NCBI GenBank assembly: GCA_943704525.1 | Contig: CALSCQ010001516.1 | Coordinates: 1-27,218, forward strand | Direction of reading: 5' to 3' | DNA from: Pigoraptor vietnamica | Taxonomy: Eukaryota; Opisthokonta; Filasterea | DNA length: 27,218 nt | In this document: positions 1,673 to 21,419 of the stretch, one piece after another | How the letters are laid out: each line of letters opens with the position of its first letter | Position numbering within the stretch: the first letter of the stretch is position 1 | Made by a program: the position numbers and the translations under genes | Notes under the pieces: model-generated | Told to the model about the DNA's origin: nothing | The model's input: the letters and a program-made list of their open reading frames with translations, nothing else | Databases searched by the model: none

Positions 1673-4600
1673 TTACCGCTTCTTTGGGTTGAGAATGTTC
1701 TCCTTCGCCTTGCGCACCGTCTCAAACTTGGAGAAGAGGCCGATCGCGCGGCGCGAGTACATCGAATAATCGTTGGCTTTCGCTGTTGGAGCGCAAGTGG
1801 ATATAGATCAGTCGAGCGCACGTCTGGCGTCTACGCGAATCAAGTGAAATTGCCGTGGCGCGCCGCTGCAAATAGCCAACACCAAAGTAAGTCAATTTCT
1901 CACCTGTGCGCTGCTCTTCTGTGAGCGGTTCGTCGTCGTCCCCACTTGTCATCGGCACGGTGTGCGGGTCGTCGTCTCCAGTCGAGCTCGCTCCCGCAGC
2001 AAACTTCGCCGCAACCTCCTTCTTGTCGCGGCGGTGGGACTCCTGCCCCTCGGCGACGTCGTCCGCGCCCCTAATGCGCTCCAGCAGCGACAGCCGCCGT
2101 GCCGGCTTCTCTTCGACCTCGAGGGGGGTAAACTCGACGAGGTTGTCCAGACTGCCAATGCGCGACATTGTGTGCGCGGGGTTGTCCATCATCTCGATCC
2201 CCTCCTCTTCCGCCATCCACTCGGCCGCCGCCTGTTCCTGCGCAGTCAGATCGTGCGCTTCGCGCGTCACAACGACGTGGCGAACAAGCACCGATTCTTC
2301 CGGCGCAACCACCGGCTCGCCGTACTCCGGCATCGGAGGGGGAGCGTCTGGCCGGTGCGTCTCCACAAAGTGCGCAAGGGGGGCCGCGGGCGCCTCGTCG
2401 CCAGCATTCCCTGCCACGTGCGCCGACGTGAGCACGTCGAGCGACCCGGCACGACTCAGCGTGGCGTGCGTCTTCGGCGCGGCGCCCGTGAGGTCTTCGA
2501 AGCTCACGCTCCTGGAACGCATGGGGTTGTCGAGCATCTCAATTTCGTCCTGCGTGGCCATCCAGTCCTCGAGCACCGTCTCTTGACTCAGCGACTTCTT
2601 GATCCCTGCGGGCGCCGGCTTCTTCTGCGCCATCCGCCGCCGGTACACCACGGCACCCACGACGCACGCCGCGACGCCCAGCACGCCCACGACGCCACCG
2701 ACGATCGGCCCGACGTTCGAGGACGAACTCTTCTTGCCGCTGATCGTGGTCGCAGTCTTGAACGTGTACTGCGCAAAGGACGTCGTCGCCAGCGTACTCG
2801 CCCTGCGGCGGGCCACTTCGCGAGGACACACGGTCCACTCAAACGCGCTCCCCGAGACGCCGTCCTGCGTCCCCGGCTTTCCATACACCTTCGATTCGCC
2901 GCACTTGCCCGTGCCAGGGACCCACTGCAGTGCGTGGGCGTCCCACGTGACCAGCTCGAGGTAGCCGTCGCTCGCGGTGACGGTGGCAAGTTGGCTGCCG
3001 GAGAGGAACACGCCGACTTTCACGACGGTCGCCGCGTCCGACAGCACAAATGACATGTCGATGAACTTGACGAGCTTGTCGCCCGAAGTGTACTGCTCGG
3101 GCTTGCGCAGGAAGGGCATGGCGCCCGGCTCGAGCGTCACGGGCGCGTCATAGTCGTCGCGTGAGACGTCTCCCACGACAAGGGTGCCGTTGTTGACAAT
3201 TTCGGTTGCCTCCGTCGCAGAAATGGCGACGGAAATGCCCGTTACGCCGTACGCACGCCGAGGAAAGTGAGCGTCGATGTCCTCGGGGTCCGAAAAGCTG
3301 CGTTGTTGGGTGCGCGGGTGAAAGAGGGGCGGGGGGTTAGAGTCCAGGTTCCACGTCGCTTGCTGGACACAGCAGAGATAGCCGGCACGTGTGCGGGTAC
3401 GCGTGTCCGCGCGTGTATGAAGCGCGCGTTGCATGGGCAGTATGCGGCATGCACGATGCAAGGGAAACCCACCGGTAATCAGTGTCGGCGAGTACAATGA
3501 TGGGCTTGTCGGACGTCACAGACGAAGCGAGCCCGGCGTAGTTGTGCGCGCGCACCGTGTTCCACAGCGTGCGGTACCGCTCCAACATAAAGTGCGAGTG
3601 GAAGCGACGGATGTTCGTGATGTTGCGACCCGTCTCCGCCTTGCCAGAGTAGAGGCCGAGCGTGAGATACGACGTGTCGTTTTCGTTCTTGCCTCTGAAG
3701 ACGTTGTCGCCCAGCGCCTTTCGCAGCGCCGACGTGTTGAAGCTGAAGCCGACAGAGACGAAGCGCTGAATGTCCGCGCCGCCAGGCGTGGAGCCAATGG
3801 CCCAATCGTAGTACCTGGACATCGTCAGTCGTCAGAGAGAGAGATCGTGGAAGGACACCGGCACATAAGACGACAAGAGCATATACACAAAGCGCGCGCA
3901 GGCATCCAAGCAGTATGATTTTTTCAAGTTGCCCGCGACTTACTTGATGCCCGACTCGGGGTCGCTGAAGCCCTCGTACTTGATGGAGATGGCATCGTTC
4001 GTTGTGGTGAAGATCGTGCCGGTGCCATCGGGCGTCCCGTTCGCGACAGTAGCCGTGACGTCCACGCGGTCGCTCAGCGGCGGTGTAAGGTCCACAAGCA
4101 CAGGCGGCGTCTTCACCGACCTGACAAGCAGCGCACCGTTCGTGGCGCGCACGGTCGCAAAGTATGTCCTGTTGTGCGATAACGTGATGTTCGTGACGGT
4201 CGCGATGATCGTGTCGTCGTTGGGATCGAGTGAATCGGCTGGCTTGAAGGGGCGAACGGACGTCGGGCTGCGCGCATTGCCGACAGCAACCTAGGGGTAT
4301 TGTGGCGAATTCACACGCATTAGACCCGTGCTGTGAGACGTGCGAGGTGTGCGTGCGTTCGTGCGTGCGTGTGCGTGTGCAGTGCGTATGGGCTTTATGT
4401 GCGCGCGTGCATCCACTTACGTCGTAGAGCATGATACCAGACTCGTAGTCGGTACACGACCACAGCACCCTCAGCGCCGTTCCGTTCGAATGAAAGGTGA
4501 TCTGGTTGTGGCCGTCCGTCTCCGCGTCCGCCATCGACACGATAATCGTGCGCAGACACTCCGGCGGTGTGAGGTCGACCATCACGCCGTTCGTCACGGA

Positions 4601-7600
4601 CGGCAGAGAGTAGAGGCCAGCCGCGTTGCGCGCACGCAAAAAGACAAAGTACTGTGCCGCCCCGAGCCACCGGATGCGCGGCGTGCAACCCGTCTTGCCA
4701 ACCCCGGACCCCTCGGAGTCCGGCGGGCATAGGCACTTGTACGACCCCAGCTCGTTCACGCACGTAGCCTTCGGGAAGCACGGCGACTTCTCGCCGCACT
4801 CATCCACATCGTCGCAGAGGGTGCCGTTGGCGACAAAGCCGGCCCGGCAAGCACACATCGGTGACCCACCCACCGCCACGCACTCGGCGCCCCGGGTGCA
4901 CGTTTTGCCCGCGCATGGGTCCGCAACAACGAGTGAATCGGCGCACGTGGGACCGCCAAAGTTTCCTGCGCACGCGCACTTGTTGGTCGACACGCACGTT
5001 CCGCCGTTCTTGCATGGAATGGCGCAGGTTGGAGCTGTCGTCGAAAGCGAAGCAGACACCGACGCGTTCTTGACGGTCGCCCACGGGATGAATGCATTGT
5101 CGATGAGCCCCATGAAGAATGAGTACGCCGCTCCCGGCACCACGGCGACGGTGGCGGACAGTGCAAACGGACACGTGGGGTCGGCATCCATGGTAGCATT
5201 GATCCGCGTGGCATTGACGGCCAGGAAGCACGTGTCGCTTGAGCAGCCTGCAGCGCCACCGTGCACAACATGAGTACCTCCGCGAAACAGGAAATGTGTG
5301 ATGGAACGCCATTAAGACACTCACACACGCACACACTCTCTCTTACCTGTGAACGCAAAGAGCACGGCGTAGATGCCATCGGTCGACGCATTTGCCGGCG
5401 CCACGTCAACGCACGACGTGACCGTGATGGAGGGCGAGATGGCGTCCACATGCGTCCATGTGCCCAGTGCACCCGCCACGGCGCCGCGACTCCATGCGTC
5501 GCAAGAAAATGTCTCCTGCGGGAAGGCCAGAGGGAAAACAACCTGCGCCGCAAGCTGCGCGGCTGGGGATGCAGTCGCACCGAACTTCACATCCTGCGCG
5601 CTTGCACAGCTCGCGCCCACGCTCGTGCACGTCGTGCCGTCTCCAATGTAACCCGGCCGGCACTCGCATCGGTAGGCGCCCGGCGTGTTCTTGCAGTCTG
5701 CGTTCCGATCGCAAGAGTACGTTTTCTCCGCACACTCGTCAACGTCCGCGCAGTTGATGAAGTCGCCGGGGGCAGCCGTGAAGCCCGGCATGCACGCGCA
5801 TGCTCCGGCCTTGCATATCGCGTTGGGGCTGTGGCAACCGAGCGGTCCGACGCCGTCGCCGTCGAATCCAGAAGCGCACGAGCACACGAACGATCCGTAC
5901 GTGTTTTTGCAGTCGGCAAGCGGGTGGCAGGGGGGGTCGACAGCTGCGCACTCGTCCACGTCGACGCACACGCGCTCAATCGTCTTGTTGAAGTGCAGCA
6001 GGTCCGTGACGTTGAGGCCGTCGTGGCCGGCAGGCAGGAGTTCCGCTTGGAGAATGTCGTTCGGGTCGCGGAGAATGCCAGTGGCGGTGTAGATCGTCGC
6101 GTTGAGGAAAACAATGCCGTCCACCTCGCGATAGCCGGGCTGGCAGGCGTACTGCGCCAGTGACACCGTGACGTTGCCCGTGAGCACGCGCGCATCGGCG
6201 GTGCAGTTGGTGTCGCACGCGTGCGACCACTGCGGAAGGCACGGGACGCACGCGCCCGAGGGGACGGGTAGGTATTCCTTCACATTCGGTGCGGCTTTGG
6301 TGCTGCCAACCGCGAGCTCGTAGGAAACGACGGGGCTGTCGGCGTCGCCGAATACAGGGGCGCCGTCGCACTGCTCGGCGTCCGCGGCCGCCGGCATTCC
6401 CACAGCCACAAATTCAGCCGCGTCACGTGTTCCCGGGGCGATGATGATGGGGTCGTCCTTGTCCCCGCCGAACGGCCACACAGCCGCACGGATAACATTC
6501 GAAAGCATAATGGGAGCGCCCGTGGATGCCCCCACGGAGACACCGTCGACAACCCAGTTCACCGACCCGTCGCCAGCCACTGAGAAATCGAACGTCGACA
6601 TGGAGGTGAACGGGGAGGTGCTATTGACGAGGAGCACGAACGACGCAGTGCGGGTGCGCGCACTCATGACCCAGCCGAGCACGTAGCCGGCATGCGGGTG
6701 GAACTGTAGACCGATCGCGTCATACGCGACGTCCCCATTCCACAACGACTGCTGCGGGAACGGCTTGCTGAGTTGCGGCAGCGGCTCGGGCAGTCCGGAC
6801 GGAAGGGCGCCGTCGGAGTTCCAGACTGAGAACGACGTGACAACGCCCGCGGACTTCGCCGGCCGCAGCTGCACCCAGAATTCGCCCTGGCGGGTGGGCA
6901 CAGTCGTCTGGTAAGCGCCCGTGAAGACAGCGCCCGCCGTCGATTCGAGAGACACCGAGACGCCTGTCGCAGTGCGCGTGACACGGGACGGCTGCACGAC
7001 CATGGAAAACACCGACGACTTGGCCGTTGCCGCGGGCGCCGCAGTCCAACCAGCGCGGCCGGGTTTGAATTGCGGCGATGAGAACGTATCCGTTGTCATC
7101 GGGCAGAGGCCGTCGGGTGTCCCGTCAAACTCGACCCACGCGGCGGCGATCCACGAGAGCGTCGACTGGTACTGCGCGTCTGTCACAATGTGCCACACGC
7201 CGTCCACGTCCACGGCGGCGCCGTCGCGCACGAAACCCGCCGAGGGGGCGGTGGAGTCGATGGTCACCGGCGGCGACGTGAGCTGGACTACCCTTCCGGC
7301 CCCTGTCGTCGCTGATATAGTCGCAACGAACGACTGCCCCACATCAAGCTTCAATCCTAAGAGACTGGCGGACGACGCCGAGCCGTCCGCGACCACTTCC
7401 CCAACGACGTAGCCAGACACCCCACCGGCGAGGAAGGTCACCCAGTACGACTCGATGCCGCTTTCCGCGTCGCTCACCGCGGAAACATTCTTGTGGCCGT
7501 TCAGAGAGACCCACGAAATGACGAGGGCGTTGTCTGCCGCCTGGTACTGCGCAGCCGTCGGAAGCACGCCGCCGGACACCGGCGCGAGGGCCCACGAGAT

Positions 7601-10600
7601 AGCCGAAGCGGTCACTGTCGGCGGCGTCACGTCAACGCGGACGCCATCAGATGCAACGGTGGTGCTGAGGCCGCCCGTGTTGGTGCAACGCACGAACGCG
7701 TAGTACGTCGTGTTCCCAGACGCGTCGAGCGTGACGTTGAGACGAAACGATCTAGCCATGCCGACGCTCGTGTAATTGGCCACGTCAAACGACGTCCCAT
7801 TGCGCATCGTGCGGTCGGTGCCAAAAGCCACCTCGTACCCGACCACTCCGAGCACGGTGTCAGAAAACCCGTCCCAATTCACCGCAAGGAACGTCGTGTC
7901 GTACTGAAAGTCCGTGTCCGGCACACGCGAGCCGTTCCCGTCGTTGACCACGCCCGCCACGGGGGACGCGCCGAAGCCCACAACTACGCCGTTGGAAGTC
8001 GCCGAAGCGGACGCGCCGGCGCCCGTGCTGCAGCGGACCGTCACGTAATAGCGCGTCAGGGCCACGAGGGGACTCTGGAGCTCAAAACGGACGGCCATGA
8101 CACCGTCCTGTGCGACGGGCTTAAAGGCGACCATGTCGTCCACGGCGCCGTCAACAAGACTGCCGAGCGCAGCCTCGAAGGAGAGCGCCTTGCCCGTCGT
8201 CGAGTTGAACCCGGACCACGTCGCCGACACGATGTACACGGAGCCTTCAGGGAGAGAGTGGATTGCAATGTTATGTGCTGCGGAATTCTGGACTTGCGCA
8301 GAATACAAGTGATAGCTTGTGCGTGCAAGACGAAGGTGCAAAAGTGAATGATTCACACAAAAAGGGGCGACAAAACCAGTCGGAGAGACCGCATACCTTG
8401 GAAGTCGATGTCGGCGCCGGGGTTCGGCCCGTCACGGACAACGCCCGGCGTGGGCTTTTCGGTCGAAACGAGTGCGCCATCCGAGCGCACAATGTGAGTC
8501 GTCCCCGCGCGGTTGAGCACAGCGACCTCCGCGAGGTACCTGACGCCATCCATGAGATTGATGTTGAAGAGCGAGCCGTAAGGCAAGAGGCCCGTCGATA
8601 CAAAGTCCGTGATGTTGGTGCCATCAGCATACACCAGGCGCCACCGGAATTCCACAACCCCGCACGCGTCGTCGATGGCCCAGTTCGCCGAGTACGAGAC
8701 GGTCGTCGCGCGCACTTGCAAATCGACGTCCGCGAGGCCGTCGCGGACCTCGTGCTGCACGAGCGAAGTAGCTTCGCTGTCGATCACGCGCATGACGGCA
8801 GACCGCGCCTGACGCCATCCGCCCGCGCGGTTGACGGCCCGCACAGATGCGTAGTAGTCGACGCCCGACGCGAGCTGCGCCTCGAAGGGAACGACGGCCG
8901 ACGACACCGACGGGGAGAGGGACACAGGGCCGTAAATAACGTCATTGCTACCATCGCCACCGGGTAGCGCACCGCGAACAATGCTCAGCTCGTAACGATC
9001 AAGGCCGCTGGGGTCGAAGAACCCATTCCACTCGACGGCAAAGCGCATGCGATCGAGCTGGCACGTGGAAGGCGCGTCTTGGCTGCCGCCCACTCCGCGA
9101 ATGCGGACAGTGCCATCGCCCGGCCGCGTAGCGTCGACGAGTGTGCCGGCGGAGGAAGCCGTCACGGACAGGTGCACCGCGTTGTATGCGGTGACGTCCG
9201 CAAAATAGACCTGGCCATCCAACAGCGCAAGCTTCGTGGCGCGATATGCGCGTTTGGTTCCGGACAGGGGTACCGGGAGAAGGGCGTCACGGCCGCCAAG
9301 GTTCGAGCCGATCGAGATCTCGTAAGACGCAATGGGGCTCTCCGCGTCCAGAAAGCCCATCCACGTGCACGCGAGCGACGAGTTGGAAGTCTGCGCGTGC
9401 GGACACGTGACCACGCCGCGCATGGGCGCCGTCGTGTCCACCGTTACTCCCGGGGATTCGGCGAGCATTGACGCAATGCCGTTACGCCCGACAGCAACGA
9501 CGGAGAGCAGCACCTGCGAGCCGCGGAGGCCAGCCACTTCGCTGGGGGTGAGAAGGCGTGCGTAGTACGGGTCCTCCACAGTCGTGCGCTTCAGCAGCGT
9601 CGCGTCGCCGGGATAGCTGCCGAGCGATATGTCGTACGAATCCACGCCTGCCCCACCGTCCACAAACTCCCAGTAGAACTGCAAATCCGCAGTGGCATCG
9701 AAGATGCCCGTGGAACCGAGAGCCATCGCGTCGCGCTTCGTCTGCGAGCCCACGTTGGTCCAAGACACGCGCGGCGCCTCGCGGTCGACCACAAAGCCCG
9801 GCGAGCGCGCGTCGAGGGAGCGCTCGCTACAGATGCCCCGCACGGTGACCCTGTAGCGCTGCGCGTCCACGAGCGTCTGCGGCAGAATGCAGTTGCCGGC
9901 GCCCTCGCCCGTGCGGTCAATCCCAAACGGCGTGAACAACTGCAGGGCCTCTGGGTCGTCGTCGGTGCCAATGGCCCACTCAAAGTGGAGGAGCGTGTCC
10001 ACCTCGCTCTCCCACCCTGAAAACGTCGCGATGACCTGCGTCGGGTCCGTCGTGTACGGCGTCTCGGTGGCTGCGGCGCCGTCCAGGACAGTCCCAGCCA
10101 CAGGCGTCGGCTTGATCGTGAGGTAGCTCGAAGTCGCGCGCCCGCTCGTCATGCCGGCCGCGTTGGTCGCCGTAACAATGTATCGGTAGACCTGGTCCTT
10201 CACGAGGGGCTCGGGCAGCTGGCTCACGGGGAATGCATACGCCGCCTCCGCGAAGCCCTCCATGTCAACGACAGCGCTGGCCACGTCCGCGCAGACGGTG
10301 TCAGCCACAGACGCGCACTTTTGCACGACCACGAGGGAGGATTTGACAGGCGTTTCGGGATCCACGGCGCTCCAGTGGAGACGGAGAGCGGTCGCCGAGG
10401 TCACCTCAAATTCCTGCACCGAAACGGGCGTGGGGAAGGGGAGTTCGAACGGGTGAGAGGCGCGAGACAGCGGGCATGCCGCAGAGCGTACATATAGGGT
10501 ACGACGGCATCCATCACATGCACGCACAGACTAAACACATTCACTCACGCACACGCATACGCACCTGGTCTTCATCCCCGCTGCCCACTATCAATTCGTT

Positions 10601-13600
10601 GATGGTCGGTGGGCTGTCGTCAAACACAACAACCGGCGACTTCCTCGTCGACGATAGCGCGGCTCGGTTCGTTGCGGTGGCGGTGAGGATGTACTTGACG
10701 CCGACGAGAATATTGCAGCCGCACGTCTTCGAATCGATGGTCGCCGCGGTCCCCGCGGCGTCCGTGGCTGGGAGGGGTCCTTTCGTGGAAAGTATCTTGT
10801 CGTTGGTGGCGTCGTTCGTAAACGACCACTCGTTCGTATTCACTTGCGACTCGGCGTCCGTGAAATGCCACGTGAACGCAAGAGGCAACGCAAGCTGGCG
10901 ATACAGCACGACCTCCTTCACGGGGTTGCCGTCAACGTTGAAGAACGTAAACGCGGGCGGCGTCGAGTCGACCATGAATCCGCTCGTAGTGACGTCGGTG
11001 TTCGTCCCGGCGCCGTTGACCGCGCGGATGGTCATCGTGTACGTGTGGCCCTGGATCAACGACAGCCCGTACATCACCACGGACGTGTCCGTCGCGCGAA
11101 TCTTGAGGAAGAAGTCCTCGTTGGTGCCGTGCGCAGCCACGCCGGCCTTCGCGGTGACGTCGTAGAGCTTGACGTACTGCGCGGCAATGCCCGAGACGTC
11201 CTCGCCGAACGGCTGCCAGGAGGCGGAGGCCTGCGAGGCGCTCGATTGGTAGTCCACATCCGCCGGAGTGGCGGCGTCCAGCCCGTCCACGAATACCGCG
11301 GGCTCGACCGGCGGAGTCGTGTCCACGGTCACTGCGAGAGTCACGAACAGCGTGTGAGGTGAAGTGATGGTGAAATGTGGCTGAGCGAGCATATTGCAAC
11401 TCCCGGGGGGGGGGGGGGGGCTCACCGCCATCGCTGCAAACGGTCGTGGACAGCTGCGGGCCCATTTCCGGTGGAACGTCGTCGTAGGCGATGACCATGC
11501 AGAAGTATGTGCCCTTGTGGTGCAGGGTGGTCGTGAACGAGATGGTGCGCTTCTTCTCCTCAGGCAACACAGTGAAGTTGCCGCCAGGAATGAGCTCGAA
11601 CGTGGGCAGGTTGCACGAACCGGGGTTGGTGCCAAAGTACACCTCGAAGCGATTCATCCCCGACTCTGGGTCTGAAAACCCCGACCACGCGCACGACAGA
11701 ACCTTGTCCGAAGGCTGGAACGCGGCGTCGTCGAGGGTCGACGCACCGTCGAAGACTGTGCCAGCGATCGGCGGCGTGCTGTCGATGACGAGCACGGGGA
11801 CGGCGACGACGAACGTCTGCCGCGTTGTCGGGTTCTCCGCGAGCACCTTGCCAAAGAGGCGCACGCCAGAGGGAATGTCAAAGAACACCATGCGGGACGC
11901 CGGGTCCGCAATGTCCGTGAAGGGTATCACGCTCGCGTCCTGCTCGCTGCGGCCGAGGGCGAATTGGACGCTAGAGAGGCCGCTCTCGTAGTCCCAGACA
12001 TCGACGTCAATGGGAATCGCGCGGAGGTCCATGCGGTACGATATGTGCGGCAGGGACACGAGCGGCGCCGTCATGTCGATGATCCGCATGCGCGTGCACA
12101 CAGTCGTCGTGAGACCGACGACGTTCGTCCCACGGACGGCAATAAAGTACTCTCCCGGCACCAGATCGCTGTCAAAGAGGTAGTCGGCGAGCACGTAGTC
12201 CTCGCGCCCGTTTGGCATCGGCGGAACACGCATAGGGCGGAAGGCGACGTGAGCGCCGCTGCACTCGGCGTCATCCGACACGCCCCACTGGTACGTCGCC
12301 ATGGGCGACTCGAGGTCCCAAAAATTGCGCAAGTTCATCGCGAGGTACCGCTGCGTCAGCGTGAACGGCGTGTCGGTGCCGGGCACATACCCCCTGCGGA
12401 CGCTGCTGAGGTCGGCCACGGGCGGCGTGTAGTCGACGAGGACGCTCGCCGAGCCGATTCCCTCGTAGCCGAGCTGGTTGAACGCGCGCACGTTGAAGTA
12501 ATACAGCGTGTTGTGCGAGAGCAGGCCGCCCAGGCTGTCGTTCTTGACGGTCGCAGAGAGGGCGTTCACCAGAGTCCACGGCGAAATGTCGTCCTTTGAG
12601 CCCGACGTCCCAATCGACCACGTGACGTTGACAATCGGCGTCTGTATTCGTGACAAGGCCAAAGCACTCGGGTGAGGCGCACACGCAATAGACGTGGATT
12701 TTGCACCGTGACTCACCTCATCCGTAACAACGAAGCTGGCCGTGATGAGCGACGGGTGGCTCTGGAACGCAGTTAGCTTGATTGAAATGGCCGGAGGCGA
12801 GAGGTCCCACGTAAGGGGAACTGTGGGCTCGTTTGCGGCGCGCTCGCCCCTCTCTCCAATGCCGCGCCGGCGTGCATGCGCCCTGGGGGTGACAGAGTGC
12901 GTCGCCGACACGCCGGCCTTGTTTGTAGCCTTCACCGTGACCGTCAGCTCGGCTTTGTCCGGCGCATCGATGGAGACGAGCGCACCACTCTTCGAAACGG
13001 CATTGCGCCAGCCCTGCGTGTACGTCGTGTCTCCGGCGCTTTTCCCGACGGCGTAATCGACGGAGGCAACGTCGGTCTCGTCGTCGCGAATGTCCCTGCG
13101 AGCAAGAGATTGCGCGGCATATCAAGAGGATGGGAGTTGAAGCGGATAGAGAGGAAACTTTGGGAACGGCACACGCCGAATACGCGCTTCCGCCAAAGCA
13201 GAAACAATAGATGAGGGGCGACCGAAGAAACGGCGCGATCACATCGTCAGCAGACCCACCATTCAATGCGCAGCGTGGCCTGGTTTTGCGGCGTGTTGTG
13301 CTCCATGTAAGCGACGAAGCAGTCCATCGAGTCCCTGCACTTGGTTGCCACGCCGTCGTCCGCCTTGATGAAAAAGTTGGGCGGCGTCTTGTCGTCGTCG
13401 CCGAGGCAGATGCGGAATAAGTCCGAGATAGTAATCTTGTTTGACGACCACCCCCACACTGCGCGAGCATCGCGATTGCAGTGAATTAAACGCAAATGTA
13501 GAGACGCAAAACGGGCGCGCGCGTACGCACTCGGACGTCGTAACAAGAAGCGCGCGCCGTCCTCAAAGTAAAGGAGGAAAAGCGTCCATGTGCGAAAACG

Positions 13601-16600
13601 AAAAAACGGAGGCAAGACACGCACAAACGCACGCCCCACAGACACACACACGCACGCGCACACATACACAGCGGTCGCCCACACACCAGTCTTCTCAAAG
13701 ACGTTGTACCACTTGACAAGGCCGAACATGTCGAGGTAAATCGTGAACGCTGCGCGATAGTAAAAGCGTCCTGTGAGCACACAACCGAAAACAACCGCGC
13801 ACTTGCAATGCTGTACCATACGAGCCCGCGCACAAACGTGCGGCCCCACACGACACATAAGCGAAGGACGCGGCACTCGTACCAATCTGCAGCGGGATGA
13901 GGTCGAGGTCGGCTGATATGCACACGCCCGGGGGGCTCTTTCCAAACATCACGACGCCGTTTCCGGTGAGCGTCATGTCAGCCACAGTCCCGTCGATGCG
14001 GAATCCAGCGCGCGCAAAGCCTGCGATGTCCGTGAGCGAAATTAAAACACGGCTCGCCGCAGGCACAGAATGCATGGCTACAGGAGTGCGGGGATACGTG
14101 CGCATGGCGGCAAAGGCACACTCAGAATACACAAACGGCGTACCGATGCTGATTTCAAGCTCAATGGTGACGTCGACGGCGAACTTTGGCGCGAGCGAGA
14201 GCGTCCCGGTCATTGTAAGGAAGCACGCTGCGCAGTGCACTCGCACTCGTGAGGCGCGCAATGTGAAGGATGCGGCACGCAGTAACAGACAAACGACGGA
14301 GTTTCGGTGTGCAAAAGTACACTACCTTTGAGCCGATAGTACGCTCCCATTCTCGCCCCAGCCGAAATTCGGACCGTCATGAGGACGGGGCTGCCGGCAA
14401 TGCGAATACTCTTTGTTACAATACAACCAACCCACATTTACGTACAAACGCGCGCACGGAAACCCGTACGCCCCATGGACGTACACGCGAGTGTGCGCGC
14501 ACACGCGAATAACAGCAACAGCAGCGGAGAACAACAAACGTGTGAAACAATCTTCTTCACGCAATAAATACACGTTGCCAGAAAGACGAACAAACGCATA
14601 GCGCTCAGTGCAGTTGTAGAGCAACTCACCCAACAGTGTACGTGAATTGGACTTGAATAATCTGCGCGAGCAGAAGGTGACGTGAGGTGCACGCACGAAC
14701 GGACGCACTCAAGTCCAAAGCGCACCGCAGGCATTTCGGCCACGCACGGCACCCACCACCATCGTCTTCTGCCAGATGGGTTGCAGGCTGCCCGTGTCGA
14801 CGCAAGCGTCCGGAAGGTTAACGAGTTCGGTGCTATGGTGTGGGTGTATAGAGTCAGAAAGACTGTACATTGCATCGACGCAGAACACACGCACCAAAAC
14901 TGTCGGTAGGCAATGTGAACCCGCCGTTGTTGGACACAATTCTGAGAAATGTGCACTCACGAGCATACGTCGGTGTCCGACTCTCCGTCCCTTCGCAGCC
15001 GATGAATGAGCTGGTCGTCGTCGCGCCTCTTCTTCGAACTCGCGGCCTTTCGTATGCTCGCGCCGGCGCTCGCCATCGCCTCCGTCAGCGGGCGCGGGCG
15101 GACAATGGGAAAGCCGAGGACGTTGAGGTATATGATGTTGGCCGACACCTTCGGCATGAGATCGGAGAGGAAGCTTTTGGCGAGGAACGGCGTCGGGTCC
15201 TCCAACTTCACTTCGTCGTCGTCGCCGTACGTGTAGTACGAAAGGTGGATAAAGATGGCGCTGCTTTTACCGCAGAGGTCCGAGAGGACGCCCGCAGGCA
15301 GCGACTTTCCGAGCGTCTTGCCCTTCTCGATGTGGTTCCCGACGATCGCGTCCGTGCGCACGTGATCGAGGCGAACGTACTTCTCCTTGAAAAAGCCGTC
15401 CGTCCCCTTAAACTCGATGAACGAAGTGTAATCGTCTGACTGCGCGATCACGGTCACCTCGCCGGTGAAGGGTGCAACGATGTCCTGTCCGGGCGTCACG
15501 AGGAGGTCGATGCCCGCCTTGTATGAGAAATCCCTATCCCTGGCTTTCGTGGGGATGATGGCACGCGGGCGTTTTCGGAACTCTTTTCCGCGGCACTTGT
15601 TCTCGTCGTCCAGCTGCGCGACGCCCCACACGCCGCTGCAGCCGCACGGCCCGCATTCGGGCTTGCAAACGCGTTCGCGGTCGCACAAGGCCGCCGGCTG
15701 ACACGGGCGCAGCTTGTTCGGAAAGTCACTGTGGAACTTGGAGCCGAAAACGCTGTAATAGAACCTTTGCATACTCGCCCAGCTGAGTGGGGAGATGCGC
15801 GGGGGAGAAGGAGGGGGGAAGGGGGGTGGGGAGGGAAGGAGGGTTTTGTTAATGCGTCTCTATATAATAACATGCATGAGCCTTTCACTAATCACAATTG
15901 TTGTTATGTTTGTGTAAGCGTTCGTGCGTGCGGCGTGCGTGTGTGCGTGTGTGCATGTGCGTTTGTGTGCATGTGTGGCGTACGTGTACGTGGTGTGCGT
16001 GCATGTTTGGCGTACGTGTGCGTGGTGTGTGTGTGTGTGTGTGTGCGTGCGTTCATGTTTGGTGTACGTGCGGTATGTGTGTGTGTGTGTGTGTGTGCGT
16101 GTGGTACGTGGTGGGCATGCAGGTGTGAGTATGTGCGGCGTGTGTGAGTGTGCGTGCATGTGCGTGCACGTGCGTGCGTGTGCGTGCGTGCACGTGCGTG
16201 CGTGTGCGTGCGTGTGCGGGCGTGCGAGGAATAAGCGTAAGCAACCCCAAACCATTCCCCGCCAAGCCACTCACGCGTTCTTGAAAGTCGCCCCAATTCC
16301 GGTCACTTCCTCGCGCACGGACGTTATCTCCTTCATCTTATCCTTGATCGACCCCGTGTTGGGACAACTCAGCTTCGAGTTGAGCTCCAGGGCAAGCTTT
16401 GCCGCCTTGCTGTCGTCGTTGACGTGGAGGCTGAACAAGATCCGCTGCGCTAGCACGCGAATCTGCGTGGTAACCGACCTGCGGCCTGCCAGTCGCGTTG
16501 GAAAGCCACGTGATGGATGCATCAATTACCAGGAACAAAACGGCTGTGACCATGTGAATGAGCAGAGTCACGAAAGCCAGGCGGAAATCTTCGGCCCTAA

Positions 16601-19600
16601 GCCAAAAGTCCGCCCAGGCGGGAGAGAGCGGAGAGAGAGGTTTTCTCTCCAAGGTTTAAGGGAAGGAGAGCGGCGTATTTGGAGATGCATGGCATAATGG
16701 CAATAAAACGACAACCGCACCTGGGCGCCACCCGAACAAGTCGGCCATTGAGAGGATGTCGCGGACAACCGTGACGATGGACGAAATGATCGACATGACC
16801 GTCTCCCCGATCGAAACGAGTGCCGCGAGGGGACACTTTGTGAACACGTCCGCGGCCGCCTTGACGTGGCCAATGCCTGTCTTGATCGTCGTAAATGCCT
16901 TGGACACATCGCCCGCCAGCTTCTTGCCTTTCTGCGCGTGCCGGTGTGCGTGACACTGTGTTAGTGTGCATGCTGACGCACGATTGCACCTGTGAGTGTG
17001 TGTTTGTGTGAGTGAGTGTGCGTGTGTTTGTGCGTGAGTATGTGTGTGAGAGTGTGAGTATGTGTGTGTATGTGTGTGTGACTATGTGAGTGTACGTCCA
17101 GTACACGCGTGTGCGTGTGCGTGTGCGTGTGTGTGGCCTCCGCGCGTGTGCGTCCAGGCAGGCGTAAGCGGGCCTAGGGAGAGCACGTGCCAAGTCGCAA
17201 GATGAGAGGGGAGGGGGGGGGTAATCACCTGAATGATGTCGGCAACAATGCCGAGGATCTGCGAGATCTGCCGCCATATTCCAAGCAGCACGGTGAAGGC
17301 GCCCGTGGATGGCACCTGTACCACGTCGTCTACGTCGCGGCGCTGCTTTTGCACAACTGTGGCGTAAGTGTTGTGTGCATCTCGCGATCAGCACCAAGCA
17401 AGAGCACACAGAATCCGCGTACCTCGTCTCCGCTCCCATTATCGCCGTCGTTGGCAGCGGCGACGCCATCAGCTGCCGCCTTTTCGATCTTGTCTTGCAT
17501 CGCGTCGATGCCAGTCAGCGTGGCGAGGATGCTCCCCACCGACGAGATCGCATTCTTGGCCGCATTGATGCCCTTCGTCACCATTTTCGAGATCTTATCT
17601 TTCACACCCTCGGCGTACTGCACGATCTTGTCGATGAGTTTTACGGGGTTGAGCTCCTTGAGCTCCTGTTTCGCGCGCGGGAATTTGGGAAAACGGCGTC
17701 GGATTAATGACAGACTGCGTGCATGGCGCATGCATTTCACACACGAGGCGAACGACTGATGGCGGATCAGCTCCCCTCAGACGGCTGTCCATCGAATCCA
17801 CTTGAGCAAGAGTTAGAGACATAGAGGAGAGTGTGCACGCTGAGATATGCTCGTCATGAAGCGTGAAATGGGGGTGACGCGAAGGACGTTGACGGACCCA
17901 CCTTGGCGATGTTGAGATCATAGCCCGCTGACACCTTCAAAGTCTGCACGTAACAACAGTAACGTGACGTCAGGGTTGATCGCGGACACCTGTTCTGCGA
18001 TACGCAACTCACCGCCGCCCCGTTGACGACGCGTGCGCTCGTGCCGAACACATATGCGTCCATGTACCTGTTGCGGGCGAGGTGAAAGGTGAGACGCCGC
18101 GTGCACGAGAAGCAAAGCGAACGTCATGAGACCGGCACAGACAGTCACTCACGCGCTGTTGTCGATGTTGATGCCAAACTGGCTCTTGGCCAGACCGAGG
18201 TCAAGCGTGGCCTCGTTGACGACATTGACCGACACTTTGGCGCCCATATCTTCAGAGCATACGTACGCGCGAGTGCGTGTGTAAGTAAGTATGTTGTGTG
18301 TGCGCGATTTGGCGGAGAGGAGGAAAGAGGGGCGGGGGGGGGGCTTAATTAGGGGACCAAATGCTGTTGACTGAACCATTCTCGTGCAGATAGGCCACGA
18401 AAAGCATCGGCACAGTGTAAATATGTGACTCACCAGATGAGCCCAATTTCTTGTCCATAGAAAACTGCGCGTGGATAAGGCGGAGCGGACGACGCGTCAA
18501 TGCCTCAGAGGTATTACGGCACTCGACTCTCTTCCCACATACCTGCGGAATGGCAACCTTGGCGTTGTACAGCCCGCCGAGCACGTGGTCTATCTCAGCC
18601 ATGGTGTCTGCTCTCCCGTTGCGGATGATCACGTCCGTGTCGCTGCTCCGTGACACGTTCGTGCCTCGCGTGACGCGCGGTTCACGCACGGCGCGCTGGA
18701 ACGTCAGTGCCATCGACCGCGGGCGCGCGTGAAATTGGGCGGCGGCATGCTCGCGCACATCCTCGTCGGCGTGGGAGAGCGCGACGCGGACGAGCAGTGC
18801 GTCCGCAGCGACAGTCTCCGTGTTGCGGATCGAGTCCAGCAAGGGCTTGTGGTACGCCGCGGGAACTCCGGTGCGCGTCTCTTCATCGCCGTGGATTGCG
18901 TCGGATATCCACCGCTCCGATCCCTCCATCCCGCTCACGCCGACGGACAGCAGAAGAGCGAGCTCGTGCGCCATGTCGGCTTCGTTCGCCTCCACGAAAC
19001 GGTCGGGAAGGTCGTCTCCGCGGGCCTGCCGACGGCGGCGGGCGGCGCGGGCGTGGATCGTGAGCTCGGACTCGATGTCGGCATAGATTCGACGCGCCTC
19101 GGCGGGGTCGGTCACAGCGAGATTCCGGACGATGTTTCCGAGAGACAGAATGAGGTGCTGCCGGGCAACAGTCCCGAGACGCGCACGCGTTGCCGCGCTC
19201 TCGGCGTCCATGCCGTAGATGATGGCGTGGAAGGCCCGCGCAAACGCGACGGTGGGCTCCACAATGGAGACAGTGGACGAGCAGAGATCGACCACGTCCG
19301 CCAGTGTCGACGACGGGTTATGTAGCACGGCCTCGACGAGCGCGTCCTGTGCTGTCGGCGTCGCGAGTTCCGCAAGGACCTGAAGGAGGTGCTCGTGGGC
19401 GACGCGACTGAGACCGGGCTGGTGGAGAAGCGTGAGCACGTACGCGACGGCCTCCCTGTCGTCCAGCGTTCGCGTGTGCGCGATGAGCTTGTTGTAGCAG
19501 CGCGCGTACAACGCGTCCGCCTCGCCGGCCGATTCCAGGCACATGATGGCAGACGCGATAGCCGGCGACACGGCGCTCAGCGGCTTTGGTGGCGGGGCGA

Positions 19601-20732
19601 TTGTCGTGAGGACGGGATCGGCGACAACGAGCGATGCAATGTCGTCCTCGAGCGAGCGCCTGCGCCTGGCAAGATCGACGCGTGCCGATGTGGTCATACG
19701 CGCAGACGAGCTGTGGAGGATGCCGTAGTCGATGTGTGGCATGACAAAGTCTTCGCCGGGTGCGTGGTGTGCCGTGTACTCTGAAGAGGCCGCGCCTGCA
19801 GACCGTGCGCGCTTCGCGGTGCCCGGCATCGCCTCGGGAACGCGTCCAAAGTGGGCGGAATCCCACGCCTGTCGGCTAGCACGCACCTCGGCGGCGCGCC
19901 CGTTGATCATGCGGACGAGCGGACCCTTCGAACGCCGCCCGAGCTCGACGGACGACGAGTGCGACAGGAGCCACATCTCCTCTGTTTCCGCGATGTCGTG
20001 GAAGGGCGCGGCCTCGCCCAACGGCACGGCGCGGCGGCGGATGGTCTTTGAGTGCGTCATATCGACGAAATCGACGTCGGTGTTTCGCTTCGACTTCGAT
20101 ATGACAAAGTCTTCGTCGCCGGCGTGCACCGTGGATGCCGCACGCGACACGGCGTAGTCCGCGCTGTGGTCGCCCGTGTGGTCCGAGTCGTCATCCACGG
20201 CGTAGCGATCGCGCGAATGGCGGTCAAGAGTGTTGGAGAACGTGCCTACGAAGCCCTTCTTCAGGTTGACGGCCGCGGGGTCGTCGTCCTTCTCGTGCAG
20301 CACGCGCAGAATGCGCCCGTTGCGCGCCTGGCAGAACAGAAAGATACCGCTCATGTCTGCGTACGATGCATCCAGCGGCGGCTCCGAGGGATCATCATTC
20401 GCGCGGAGCTCCAGTTCGTCGACATCCAGCGACACGAGATCGCAATCGGTCTCGCGACGGACGAGATGCAGGGCAAGTTTCGCGGTCACGTGCATGGGGG
20501 CCGTGGCCGTGCCGGCGTGCACCGACGCCCCCCGCGGATGCGCGTGCGATTCGTAACGGTAGTAATAGACGCGGTCCTCCGCATACAGAGTGGGCCAAGC
20601 ATCTTCGCTGTCGGTGGGGGCCGCGTGACTGGTCGCAATCGCGAACGCGAACACGAGGACCGCGCACGCGCGCATCGACACGACCGCCGGGCGACCACGA
20701 CGGAAGCGGCACGAAGGGCTCTTCCCTGCCAT
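1673..20732 (-). CDS. Giant membrane protein: LPD_N, M23/LECT2-like, FN3-like repeats, EGF, one TM
   Basis: I join 26 exons (coordinates in the domain entries) from ATG 20732 to TAA 1673. All 25 introns are GT-AG, phases match at every junction, and the total (15,192 nt) is divisible by three, giving 5,063 residues. Domain order: signal peptide; vitellogenin/MTP-type lipid-transfer N-terminus (to ~730); helical lipid-binding-like segment (~730-1065); Cys-rich plus M23/LECT2-like domain (~1065-1338); beta-rich region (~1339-1616); FN3-like repeats (~1600-3840, more at ~4250-4560); two EGF clusters (~3848-3966 and ~4130-4245); TM (~4758-4780); cytoplasmic tail. Start chosen: A at -3, G at +4; a start at 20675 would give a shorter signal peptide. 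TGA triplets at 14959 and 13249 look like gene ends but overlap splice donors. The exon 16/17 junction restores one FN3-like repeat, so lipid-transfer and receptor halves appear to be one gene. It could still be two genes if transcripts show an internal end. Confidence 0.72.
2139..2573 (-). other. Duplicated cytoplasmic motif with SRxxS sites
   Basis: Two similar blocks lie about 115 residues apart: LEDWMATQDEIEMLDNPM with SRSVSFEDL (2490-2573) and AAEWMAEEEGIEMMDNPA with SRIGSLDNL (2139-2225). A third half-copy, SRAGSLDVL, lies between them, and RRLSLLERI follows. The shared core is W-M-A...IEM-x-DNP followed by S-R-x-x-S-hydrophobic-acidic-x-L. The RxxS(L/F) core resembles sites of basophilic Ser/Thr kinases and could bind 14-3-3-like adaptors once phosphorylated. 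That function is inference; the repetition is seen directly. Confidence 0.7.
2646..2714 (-). other. Single transmembrane helix of the giant protein
   Basis: The Gly/Val/Ala-rich segment VGPIVGGVVGVLGVAACVVG followed by AVVYRRRMAQKK has the standard layout of a type I membrane protein: about 23 hydrophobic residues, then a basic stop-transfer. It puts the large N-terminal part outside the cell and about 283 residues inside. The GG/GxxxG-rich face could favour helix pairing. Confidence 0.88.
3473..4290 (-). other. Exons 23-24: last FN3-like repeats
   Basis: Exons 3944-4290 and 3473-3814. The first carries NRTYFATVRATNGALL and VLVDLTPPLSD, then IKYEGFSDPESGIK. That last motif is completed across the intron by YYDWAIGSTPGGADIQ, the usual continuation of this repeat type, which independently supports the splice. 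The second exon continues through FRGKNENDTSYLTLGLYSG and ITNIRRFHSHFMLERYRTL to a GTGGGT donor in phase 2. Confidence 0.75.
4421..5247 (-). other. Exon 22: second EGF cluster and start of another repeat
   Basis: Phase 1 in, phase 0 out (GTAAGT donor). The exon starts with a Cys-containing strand domain (CSSDTCFLAVNATRINATM). Three EGF-like domains follow at about 4684-5030: CKNGGTCVSTNKCACAG, CTRGAECVAVGGSPMCACRA, and an EGF_CA with DVDECGEKSPCFPKATC and NELGSYKCLCPPDSEG. It then goes back to the FN3-like type (YFVFLRARNAAGLYSL, then VMVDLTPPECL), ending in WSCTDYESGIMLYD. Confidence 0.82.
5620..5975 (-). other. First EGF cluster: three EGF-like domains, two calcium-binding
   Basis: At residues ~3848-3966, inside the exon 5347-8292. 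DVDECAAVDPPCHPLADC with NTYGSFVCSCASGFDGDG is a textbook EGF_CA (DxDEC, then a G-S-F/Y-x-C core). A shorter EGF-like unit follows (NAICKAGACACMPGFTAAPG), then a second EGF_CA (DVDECAEKTYSCDRNADC, NTPGAYRCECRPGYIGDGTTC). Upstream of the cluster is a Cys-containing segment (VPCLPQWSHACDTNC). Calcium-binding EGF units usually give rigid rods in adhesion and matrix proteins. Confidence 0.9.
5976..13095 (-). other. Exons 17-21: array of FN3-like repeats with D-x-TPP linkers
   Basis: Exons: 12717-13095, 11426-12641, 10565-11331, 8397-10413, 5347-8292 (the last also carries the first EGF cluster). Each repeat of about 90-130 residues has a strand such as CAWSGFSDPESGMNRFEVYF or CTWMGFLDAESPIASYEISI, then a Y-x-V-x-A-x-N-x-G strand (YTMTIRAVNGAG, YYASVRAVNRAG, YFNVRAFNQLG), and ends with a linker such as VLVIDSTPPIAGTVFDG, VTVDTTPPVEPAVFVDG or TIDSTAPSAGFVRDG. 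This is the extracellular Ig-fold repeat type seen in large invertebrate surface proteins. I count about 17 linkers in the whole gene. Many NxT/NxS sequons fit an extracellular location. Intron sites do not coincide with repeat boundaries. The acceptor of the 5347-8292 exon is uncertain (8292 or 8277; both keep frame). Near residues 3300-3700 one repeat carries a long insert with lectin-like beta strands. Confidence 0.72.
11405..11420. repeat. G16/C16 homopolymer just inside an intron donor
   Basis: Sixteen G on the plus strand. In the sense of the giant gene it reads GTGAG followed at once by C16, at the start of intron 18 (11332-11425). It is a slippage-prone site whose length may be wrong in the assembly. 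It lies outside the coding sequence. Confidence 0.85.
13260..14862 (-). other. Exons 11-16: beta-rich region between M23-like domain and repeats
   Basis: Exons: 14757-14862, 14630-14661 (32 nt), 14326-14390, 13883-14227, 13687-13770, 13260-13458. Each junction keeps frame. The protein here (residues ~1339-1616) is made of alternating hydrophobic strands (IIQVQFTYTV, VLMTVRISAGARMGAYYRL, LSLAPKFAVDVTIELEISIG, GFRIDGTVADMTLTG) with scattered Cys and the acidic loop LGDDDKTPPNFFIKADDG. It could be the beta-sheet lipid cavity that follows the helical domain in large lipid transfer proteins, but I cannot match it to a named family. The acceptor of exon 11 (gtacag at 14864-14863) has a weak pyrimidine tract and was chosen because it alone joins the phase-2 donor in frame. 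The long introns 13459-13686 and 13771-13882 show no further exon. Confidence 0.52.
14961..15782 (-). other. Exon 10: Cys-rich segment and M23/LECT2-like domain
   Basis: An 822-nt exon, phase 2 in and phase 2 out. After a Cys-rich stretch (RPCQPAALCDRERVCKPECG, then GPCGCSG) comes a peptidase-M23-type fold at residues ~1148-1266: KAGIDLLVTPGQDIVAPFTG matches the HxGxD strand and following turn of M23 and of the animal protein LECT2 ([20 protein letters not shown]). EKYVRLDHV, GNHIEKGKTLG, then SAIFIHLSYYTYGDDDE and EDPTPFL match the later strands. M23 zinc sites are H and D of HxxxD plus the second H of HxH. Here the first H is Lys (codon 15520-15518), Asp is kept (15508-15506), and HxH reads FIH with only the last His (15247-15245). 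A non-enzymatic binding role is therefore likelier than peptidase activity. The exon's tail is basic (KAASSKKRRDDDQ) and ends before a GTGAGT donor. Confidence 0.68.
15783..16274 (-). repeat. 492-nt intron filled with GT/CA and GC-mixed repeats
   Basis: On the plus strand about 15,918-16,230 is a long imperfect (GTGC/GTGT)n tract, broken by short words such as catgtttggcgtacgtg that recur at roughly 50-60-base spacing. In the sense of the minus gene it is CA-rich. A C-rich pyrimidine tract with ccactcag forms the acceptor of the next exon. Open frames inside the tract are products of the repeat, not genes. Confidence 0.8.
16275..18464 (-). other. Exons 2-9: beta strands then amphipathic helices after LPD_N
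   Basis: Exons: 18434-18464 (31-nt microexon), 18153-18249, 18013-18067, 17902-17943, 17423-17665, 17229-17342, 16721-16931, 16275-16485. Phases join throughout. Exons 2-4 encode alternating strands (GAKVSVNVVNEATLDLGLA, AYVFGTSARVVNGAA). Exons 5-8 encode helices with hydrophobic and Lys/Asp faces (LIDKIVQYAEGVKDKISKMV, AKNAISSVGSILATLTGID, LLGIWRQISQILGIVADIIQ, VMSIISSIVTVVRDILSMA). Such helices suit a lipid surface, as in apolipoproteins. For the last exon the acceptor at 16486/16485 is chosen. An alternative uses an extra 59-nt exon (16530-16588) with the acceptor at 16463/16462 and also keeps frame, but adds a very hydrophobic segment. The intron 16932-17228 is CA-rich in the sense strand. 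Confidence 0.6.
18543..20732 (-). other. Exon 1: signal peptide and vitellogenin-type N-terminal lipid-transfer domain
   Basis: This single 2,190-nt exon encodes residues 1-730. A hydrophobic core (MRACAVLVFAFAIATSHA, residues 20-37) is the signal peptide. Family signs of the large lipid transfer proteins (vitellogenin, apoB, MTP; LPD_N domain) follow: a first beta-strand with DRVYYYRYES, then a strand ending CDLVSLDVDELEL, then NGRILRVLHEKDDDP and NLKKGFVGTFSNTLD, which match the family's 'NG.I..V....DDP....N.KRG......LD' pattern. Residues ~390-690 are a helical repeat region (REAVAYVLTLLHQPG, HEHLLQVLAELATPTAQDAL, RQHLILSLGNIVRNLAV, DEDVREHAAAQFHAR) as in the LPD_N alpha-helical horseshoe. 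The region between them is longer and more Arg-rich than in vitellogenin and carries a polybasic RRRR site. Family assignment is by pattern memory, not by search. Confidence 0.78.
19656..19667 (-). other. Polybasic RRRR site, possible furin cleavage
   Basis: The encoded ARRRRSLEDD lies between the N-terminal beta-barrel and the helical region. RXXR followed by S is the furin-type consensus, and many vitellogenins and related lipoproteins are cut by furin-like proteases. A second polybasic stretch (ARRRRQARGDD) lies further on in the same exon, near 19030-19050. Actual cleavage is inferred. Confidence 0.4.
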
Positions 20733-21419
20733 GATTGACCTGCACACGCTCGGCGCAGTCTTCCTCCGTCTCACAACGGCGAGCGAACGAACCGTGCGGT
20801 GGGTTCTAGAACGCCGGAATCTGATTGTAGGTTAAGTTGTTCGAATCTCTCCAGAGCGAACGATGCCCCAGCGACGGGGCGGATGCGCTCGTCGACGGCA
20901 GCGTCCCAGCAACAGGGAGCCCCAGCGCAAGCAGCTTCCTTCAAAACACGATGGTGAGCTCATGGCGCGTTTGGCACGGAGGTGTGTGTGTGTGTGTGCG
21001 TGTGTGTGTCTAGTCTGCCGATGCCTACCTTGTGTCCTGAGCGGCGATTGGTGTTTACTTTGCCGCCTTTTTATTTTGGGTTTACAAGTGTATGGACTTT
21101 GTATGGACCGCCCTTTATTGGGGGGGAGGACCACGGGGGTTGTCCACTGCCCTTCCGTGCCGACAGTCCAGTGATTGCTGTTGTCGCAGTGTTCCTCGCG
21201 CTCGTTTCTCGCTGCGCTGACGGCGCTCGCTAAAGGGGCGCTTTCCGTCGCTCTGTGCGTGTGCTGACGCTGTTTGCCGCGCAGCGGTCGTCAGAATTCG
21301 CGTTGTTCGATAGTGTAATTTCGCCCGGATCAAATCGAACGCTGCATCGGCGATTCGGTTGCTGCCGTCACGGTCACGGTGTCCGCGACGGTGGCACGAC
21401 CACCCTCGGCGCGACAAAT
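20733..21419. promoter_or_regulatory. Divergent promoter interval between two secretory-pathway genes
   Basis: 687 bases separate the ATG of the giant gene (minus, 20732) from the ATG of the plus-strand gene (21420), so both 5' UTRs and promoters must lie here. It contains a short GT repeat (20982-21008), T-rich patches (around 21058-21080, gccgcctttttattttgggt), two GC-rich flanks and a G8 run near 21119-21128. No clear TATA box, and no motif that I can name with confidence. The short open frames here lack domain character. Confidence 0.65.

Follow-up and report, generated by a model that had tools for sequence, protein, structure and literature searches.

A putative lipid-transfer-type head on a giant predicted FN3/EGF membrane protein of a unicellular holozoan

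The window analysed here, a 27,218-nucleotide stretch of Pigoraptor vietnamica DNA corresponding to contig C629, carries a long gene on the minus strand with its ATG at position 20732 and its stop codon at 1675-1673. Our exon-by-exon model of this gene has 27 exons with GT-AG borders at all 26 introns, and the coding sequence of 14,991 nt, divisible by 3, translates without an internal stop into a protein of 4,996 aa in the order signal-like stretch, Vitellogenin_N/LPD_N-type head, degenerate M23 domain, beta-rich region, 20 FN3-like repeats, EGF domains, membrane helix, and a tail of ~285 residues. An earlier note on this DNA had proposed a type I membrane protein of about 5,063 residues whose exon phases all join and whose spliced length is divisible by three; the topology, the joined phases, and the divisibility carry over to our model, but the length does not, coming out 67 residues shorter. 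The earlier coordinates, phases, and junction sequence otherwise agree with the independent 27-exon model. The small exons 2-9 and 11-16 were picked by judgement, and most borders from aa 995 on are backed by a related gene on contig C551. An ATTAAA lies past the stop at 1644 on the minus strand, and neither AATAAA nor ATTAAA occurs on that strand between 20732 and 1673, both observations being weakly informative at this GC content. Elsewhere in the window, a separate minus-strand frame at 1-809, with a signal-like stretch recognised by eye, is cut by the window end; a scanned piece of it gave no Pfam match, and the 8 window ORFs scanned besides the long gene gave none at E <= 0.01.

Searches of the same-genome assembly (32.5 Mb, 1,395 contigs) with exon 10 and exon 1 identified relatives on contigs C551 and C988, which were compared with C629 by scripted spliced alignment (local, with linear gaps and GT-AG introns). 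C551 aligns from aa 924 to the end (3,978 residues, 57% identical, stop-free), and 15 of the 19 C629 introns from aa 995 on recur in C551 with residue and phase unchanged, among them the disputed one that separates the two halves of the gene; three of the other four lie within 7 residues in C551 (one shifted by one codon and two in another phase, the alignment there being uncertain), one is missing, and C551 has two extra introns. The C988 alignment covers about aa 278-4,990 (4,382 residues, 38% identical, stop-free); C988 carries head and stalk together and shares few intron positions with C629; upstream of its head the sequence reads N, so that the first ~277 residues are unseen. The exon 1 search matched C629 and C988 only, the C551 contig ending before the head. 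A fourth, more distant member at C154:9001-15996 (L062) has the beta region, FN3 repeats, and, upstream, what appears to be an M23-like end; its contig, too, stops short of the head. A search with its beta region recovered, at E <= 0.01, the four members C154, C988, C551, and C629 alone. Other giant FN3-like genes on C1277, C300, and C575 (L041-L044) gave no match to the lipid-transfer half in the pieces covered.

The genome at large also yielded at least 47 cadherin matches on two contigs (C1328 and C874) and 28 exact tyrosine-kinase-like H-R-D-[L/F]-A-A-R-N motifs, against 0 for the same pattern read backwards; HRD[L/F]AARN motifs and cadherins are what unicellular holozoans, choanoflagellates among them, are expected to carry, and an animal origin is unlikely for a genome of 32.5 Mb. 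The mitochondrial contig C295 (L024-L027) encodes cox1 with TGA read as Trp, together with ribosomal-protein-like frames named by eye, and its 21 tRNA genes all lie in the first 20 kb, the other 19 kb having none. Of 8,000 database proteins scored against this cox1, one matches at 99%, and the others of the best 120 reach 74% or less. EF-1A, represented by a lone first exon at a contig end, was uninformative as a taxon marker.

The head begins in exon 1 (aa 1-730; 18543..20732, this and all following features being on the minus strand), a single open frame comprising a signal-peptide-like hydrophobic stretch at about aa 20-38 (20619..20675; Kyte-Doolittle value 2.10 at aa 16-34, limits set by eye), an N-terminal beta part, and a helical part; the C988 homolog is 29% identical over aa 306-676. 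The earlier note had predicted an LPD_N module within residues 1-730, and Pfam Vitellogenin_N (PF01347) indeed matches aa 50-202 (20127..20585), corresponding to profile positions 1-151 of the N-terminal beta-barrel part, with an E value of 5.8e-6 and 25.6 bits against a cut-off of 24; inside a 1,582-aa piece the same match scores 22.6 bits, under the cut-off. The helical part at about aa 400-680 (18693..19535) is not matched in C629 itself, and was assigned from alignment A1 and from its C988 counterpart, which matches Vitellogenin_N positions 317-550 at 5.8e-7 and 28.9 bits (28.5 in a six-frame search). Thus the C629 and C988 matches fall on different, complementary, and correctly ordered parts of one profile. 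Exons 2-5 (aa 731-805; 17902..18464) encode a beta-type stretch that follows the helical part in the gene model and is conserved in C988, and exons 6-9 (aa 806-1065; 16275..17665) encode a helical segment with a conserved hydrophobic helix at aa ~962-980 (16764-16820; Kyte-Doolittle 1.91 in C629, 2.14 in C551, and 2.25 in C988). Because 32 N-glycosylation sequons precede aa 4680 and the EGF domains lie beyond this stretch, we take it to be a lipid-facing or buried helix; a membrane span at this point would alter the topology.

The head could in principle be a helical-repeat protein that resembles large lipid transfer proteins (LLTPs) by chance, a reading we consider improbable. It would account for Vitellogenin_N scores that barely pass the cut-off, for the HEAT_PBS match in the C988 head (E 0.02) and the Flu_NP match on the C629 helical part (0.054), and for PDB sequence searches with the head and beta region that returned chance-level matches only and no solved LLTP structure at E <= 10. 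Against it, two paralogs pass a curated cut-off on different, ordered parts of the same profile, and no Pfam family was matched by the reversed C629 and C988 head sequences. A whole-genome Vitellogenin_N search listed C988 alone, with C629 absent. The earlier description of the module as vitellogenin/MTP-type is partly supported, by two above-cut-off Pfam matches in two paralogs; the lipid-cavity sheets were not recognised, and a profile search for DUF1943, run without a positive control, gave no match in the genome. DUF1081 and VWD gave no match in the Pfam-scanned pieces, which cover the C629 protein except for a few residues at exon borders; MTP likewise has neither VWD nor DUF1081, so their absence here bears on LLTP subfamily only. 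A comparison of MTP_lip_bd with the beta region reached E 0.11-0.17 in C154, one of the four members, which is not significant (reversed C154 matched Pex24p at 1.1). We conclude that the head is probably of the large-lipid-transfer (LLT/LPD_N) type, a call that is modest but doubly supported.

Following or interrupting the head module, inside the lipid-transfer half, exon 10 (aa 1065-1339; 14961..15782) encodes a cysteine-rich stretch and a degenerate M23 domain (aa 1153-1228; 15293-15520). Pfam Peptidase_M23 matches C629 exon 10 at 3e-7 and 31.0 bits, above the cut-off of 28.7, but scores 28.2 inside a longer piece, and C551 and C988 reach 18.1 and 15.5 bits, both under the cut-off; against the PDB, profile A2 of the domain finds 5kqb at 0.0058, and exon 10 alone at 0.093. 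M23 peptidases bind zinc through H-x3-D and H-x-H. When C629, C551, and C988 are aligned, the first His is replaced by K, P, and R, respectively, and HxH has become F-x-H, while the D and the last H are kept; with two of the four ligands missing, peptidase activity is very improbable, and the domain may serve in binding instead. Degenerate M23 domains of the LECT2 type, and others, use the M23 fold without peptidase activity; LECT2 itself is small and secreted, whereas the C629 domain, lacking two of four zinc ligands, is embedded in a giant receptor.

A basic RLRR site (aa 1326-1329; 14990..15001) stands before the beta-rich region of exons 11-16 (aa 1339-1499; 13687..14832), which has a C154 homolog at E 4.5e-16. 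An R-x-[KR]-R motif directly precedes the beta region in C629, C551, and C988, and RRRR occupies the place in C154. ApoLp-II/I, apoCr, and most insect vitellogenins have known convertase sites (PMC1783640), and by analogy the basic site suggests processing as in the apolipophorins. The protein might accordingly be a precursor in which a furin-type protease cuts at this site, and perhaps also at an RRRR near aa 356, freeing a soluble lipid-carrying head and leaving the beta/FN3/EGF part as a membrane dock. The recurrence of the site at one place in the relatives and the convertase precedents speak for such a precursor, but the motif, a short one, occurs 3 times in the extracellular part of C629, compared with a mean of 0.97 and a maximum of 4 in 200 shuffles, and the beta region, which would stay with the membrane part and away from the head, is the best conserved of nine stretches compared between C629 and C551 (aa 1340-1498; 71% identity and the lowest dN, 0.21, synonymous sites being saturated). 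We regard a released head as rather unlikely.

The junction between the lipid-transfer and repeat halves falls in exons 17-18 (12717..13458), where the repeat HMM and the relatives place the first FN3-like repeat (aa 1521-1634) across the intron at residue 1565. It had been claimed that joining 13260 to 13095 restores one repeat motif, and this is what we find: the spliced sequence reads TLRIEW followed by DIRDDETDVASVDYAVG, and the HMM copy runs through residue 1565 with an i-E of 2e-17. As that HMM was built including this copy, a stricter HMM was built with repeat 1 of every protein left out (0 matches in 20 shuffles); it still matches repeat 1 of C629 at 1556-1631 (6.8e-9), and matches repeat 1 of C551 (7e-11) and C988 (1.9e-9) over its length. 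Could two neighboring genes, one for a secreted LLTP-like protein and one for an FN3/EGF receptor, have been wrongly joined? The junction is an intron in C629, the model was drawn from genomic sequence, and the stricter HMM covers only 9 C629 residues before the junction. Nonetheless, i) the disputed intron (aa 1565, phase 2) is present in C551 at the same residue and phase, being 164 nucleotides long in C629 and 105 in C551; ii) C988 lacks this intron, and its exon 19721-21231, starting at about aa 1508, reads through so that repeat 1 is unbroken; iii) in C154 one open frame takes in the beta region together with the beginning of repeat 1 and extends to GEWEADDK, past the junction-equivalent residue, and by eye the next exon continues with ETGVDKVEWAGG; and iv) repeat 1 itself straddles the junction, and both halves are collinear in C551 and C988. 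A misjoin is very unlikely because C551 shares the intron and both the C988 exon and the C154 frame run through the point, and on these grounds we reject the two-gene model; the proposed linkage of the two halves in one gene is strongly backed by all three relatives.

A repeat HMM built from C629, C551, and C988 finds 20 FN3-like repeats in C629 at i-E <= 1e-3 (some partial; aa 1521-4415; 3715..13393), 20 in C551, and 19 in C988, again some partial, and 0 in 20 shuffles of the C629 protein. Pfam fn3 scores 27.9 bits in C629 exon 21 (cut-off 25), falls under the cut-off in exon 20, and passes it in C988 and in C154 (33.7 bits in the latter). The repeats are interrupted by a weakly lectin/GH16-like stretch and by a block of EGF and EGF_CA domains in exons 22-23 (about aa 3788-4170; 4709..5956; EGF_3 at 6.2e-18, EGF_CA at 2.1e-15 and 3.7e-7). 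All four families anticipated in the earlier note (LPD_N, M23, FN3, and EGF_CA) are therefore found in C629 by Pfam profiles. Exons 19, 24, 25, and 27 had no Pfam match, exons 18 and 26 had below-cut-off matches only, and an NCBIfam scan of four pieces gave nothing useful. The GH16/lectin-like stretch scores 22.8 bits in C988 (L003:6675-9758) against a cut-off of 22, and its C629 counterpart, at about 6820-7010, has an E value of 0.058.

The stalk is followed by a predicted transmembrane helix at about aa 4690-4712 (2649..2717), with a Kyte-Doolittle peak of 2.52 at aa 4694 and corresponding values of 2.42 in C551 and 2.43 in C988, and by a predicted cytoplasmic tail at about aa 4713-4996 which, with the stop codon, occupies 1673..2648 in the gene model and is 53% identical in C551. 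By eye the tail repeats an EWM...EIEM.(D/E)NP-like motif that is partly kept in C551, and C988 has NPLY instead. NPxY is the sorting signal of LDL receptors. The NPLY of C988 resembles it but is no family feature, because the C629 and C551 tails have NP without the tyrosine. The architecture as a whole, in which one gene encodes a giant type I membrane protein with its head on an FN3/EGF stalk, is well supported, and we are confident of it; from this architecture we infer that head and stalk are extracellular.

LLTPs are known as soluble or ER lipid carriers of animals, and the superfamily (MTP large subunit, vitellogenin, apoB, apolipophorin II/I, and apoCr) resembles the C629 protein in its signal-like start, its N-terminal LPD_N module, a beta part placed before the helical part, and a linker with a basic site. 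The described members differ, in the parts of the literature cited here, in being extracellular or (MTP) intracellular lipid carriers without a membrane helix, FN3, EGF, or M23 domains; conversely, the C629 protein has no recognised DUF1943, DUF1081, or VWD. The LLT module, with its twenty-two conserved motifs N1-N22, is the N-terminal marker of LLTPs, and is partnered by DUF1081 and VWD in some families (PMC1783640). Honey bee vitellogenin has a similar layout, with a barrel at 21-323, a linker at 324-360, and a helical part at 361-756 (PMC8727950). Crustacean dLp/HDL-BGBP is likewise a giant LLTP precursor (predicted 4,831 aa) whose product is a beta-1,3-glucan-binding lipoprotein; unlike the C629 protein, these are soluble hemolymph lipoproteins with a predicted furin cleavage, and no FN3, EGF, or membrane part is described in the passages cited (PMC8416765). 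The other half of the C629 protein shares its FN3 repeats, EGF domains, and single membrane helix with FN3-repeat membrane receptors. In choanoflagellates and animals, giant membrane receptors of the FN3/EGF kind combine FN3-like repeats, an EGF block, a single membrane helix, and a short tail, and we know of none with a lipid-transfer-type head.

Nor did we find the arrangement of a lipid-transfer head on a giant FN3/EGF membrane receptor described elsewhere, among the matches listed by our searches. A literature search produced, among the matches listed, no paper on an LLT module joined to FN3, EGF, or membrane parts, or on an LLTP in a protist, and the terms "vitellogenin" and "lipid transfer" are absent from the main text of a study of choanoflagellate gene families (PMC6040629). 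In the protein database, the full-length query with words from aa 1065-1565 had no match at E <= 1e-3 among 5,659 candidates, and alignment A1 had none at E <= 10 among 8,000 candidates scored, both searches being confined to proteins close to the query in length and having 5-letter words in common with it. Unstudied protist Vitellogenin_N proteins may be present in public databases.

What might such a protein do? The head could form a cup that binds lipid on the outer side of the plasma membrane; the inactive M23 domain, and likewise the lectin-like stretch, could attach to cell-wall or glycan material; head, M23-like, and lectin-like parts together could retain bacterial prey, vesicles, or lipid particles; and lipid, or a signal, could then reach the cell, perhaps once the basic site has been cut. 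We wish to stress that the steps of this scheme are not equally secure. That the head binds lipid is somewhat favored, whereas a capture or sensing role at the cell surface is tentative, and the full reading, a membrane-tethered surface protein of large-lipid-transfer type that probably captures or senses lipids or bacterial material, has in our judgement an even chance of being right. Alternatively, no lipid would be transported at all, and the protein would be a receptor for adhesion or prey recognition that binds bacterial surface material through all of its LPD_N-like, M23-like, and lectin-like parts. The degenerate M23 domain and the GH16-like stretch would suit such a receptor, as would the recognition of pathogen patterns by N-terminal parts of vitellogenin (PMC8727950), but the alternating strands of the beta region resemble, by eye, a lipid-facing sheet, and we think pure recognition unlikely, though less so than a chance resemblance of the head to LLTPs.

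If the lipid-capturing or lipid-sensing reading is true, an LLTP-type head tethered to the membrane of a unicellular holozoan would push the module back before animals and give it a new job. It is conceivable, as a long shot, that the lipid-transfer module of yolk proteins, apoB, and MTP was used before animals in holozoan surface receptors that captured lipids from bacteria or the water and reported them to the cell. Choanoflagellates respond to bacterial lipids, namely rosette-inducing sulfonolipids and LPEs, and the RIF receptors are spoken of, in the passages cited, without any being named (PMC7237790, PMC10770216). Were this idea correct, the C629-type family would be a candidate for the receptors behind the choanoflagellate response to bacterial lipids, and the genes on C629, C551, C988, and C154 offer a concrete, testable candidate receptor type.
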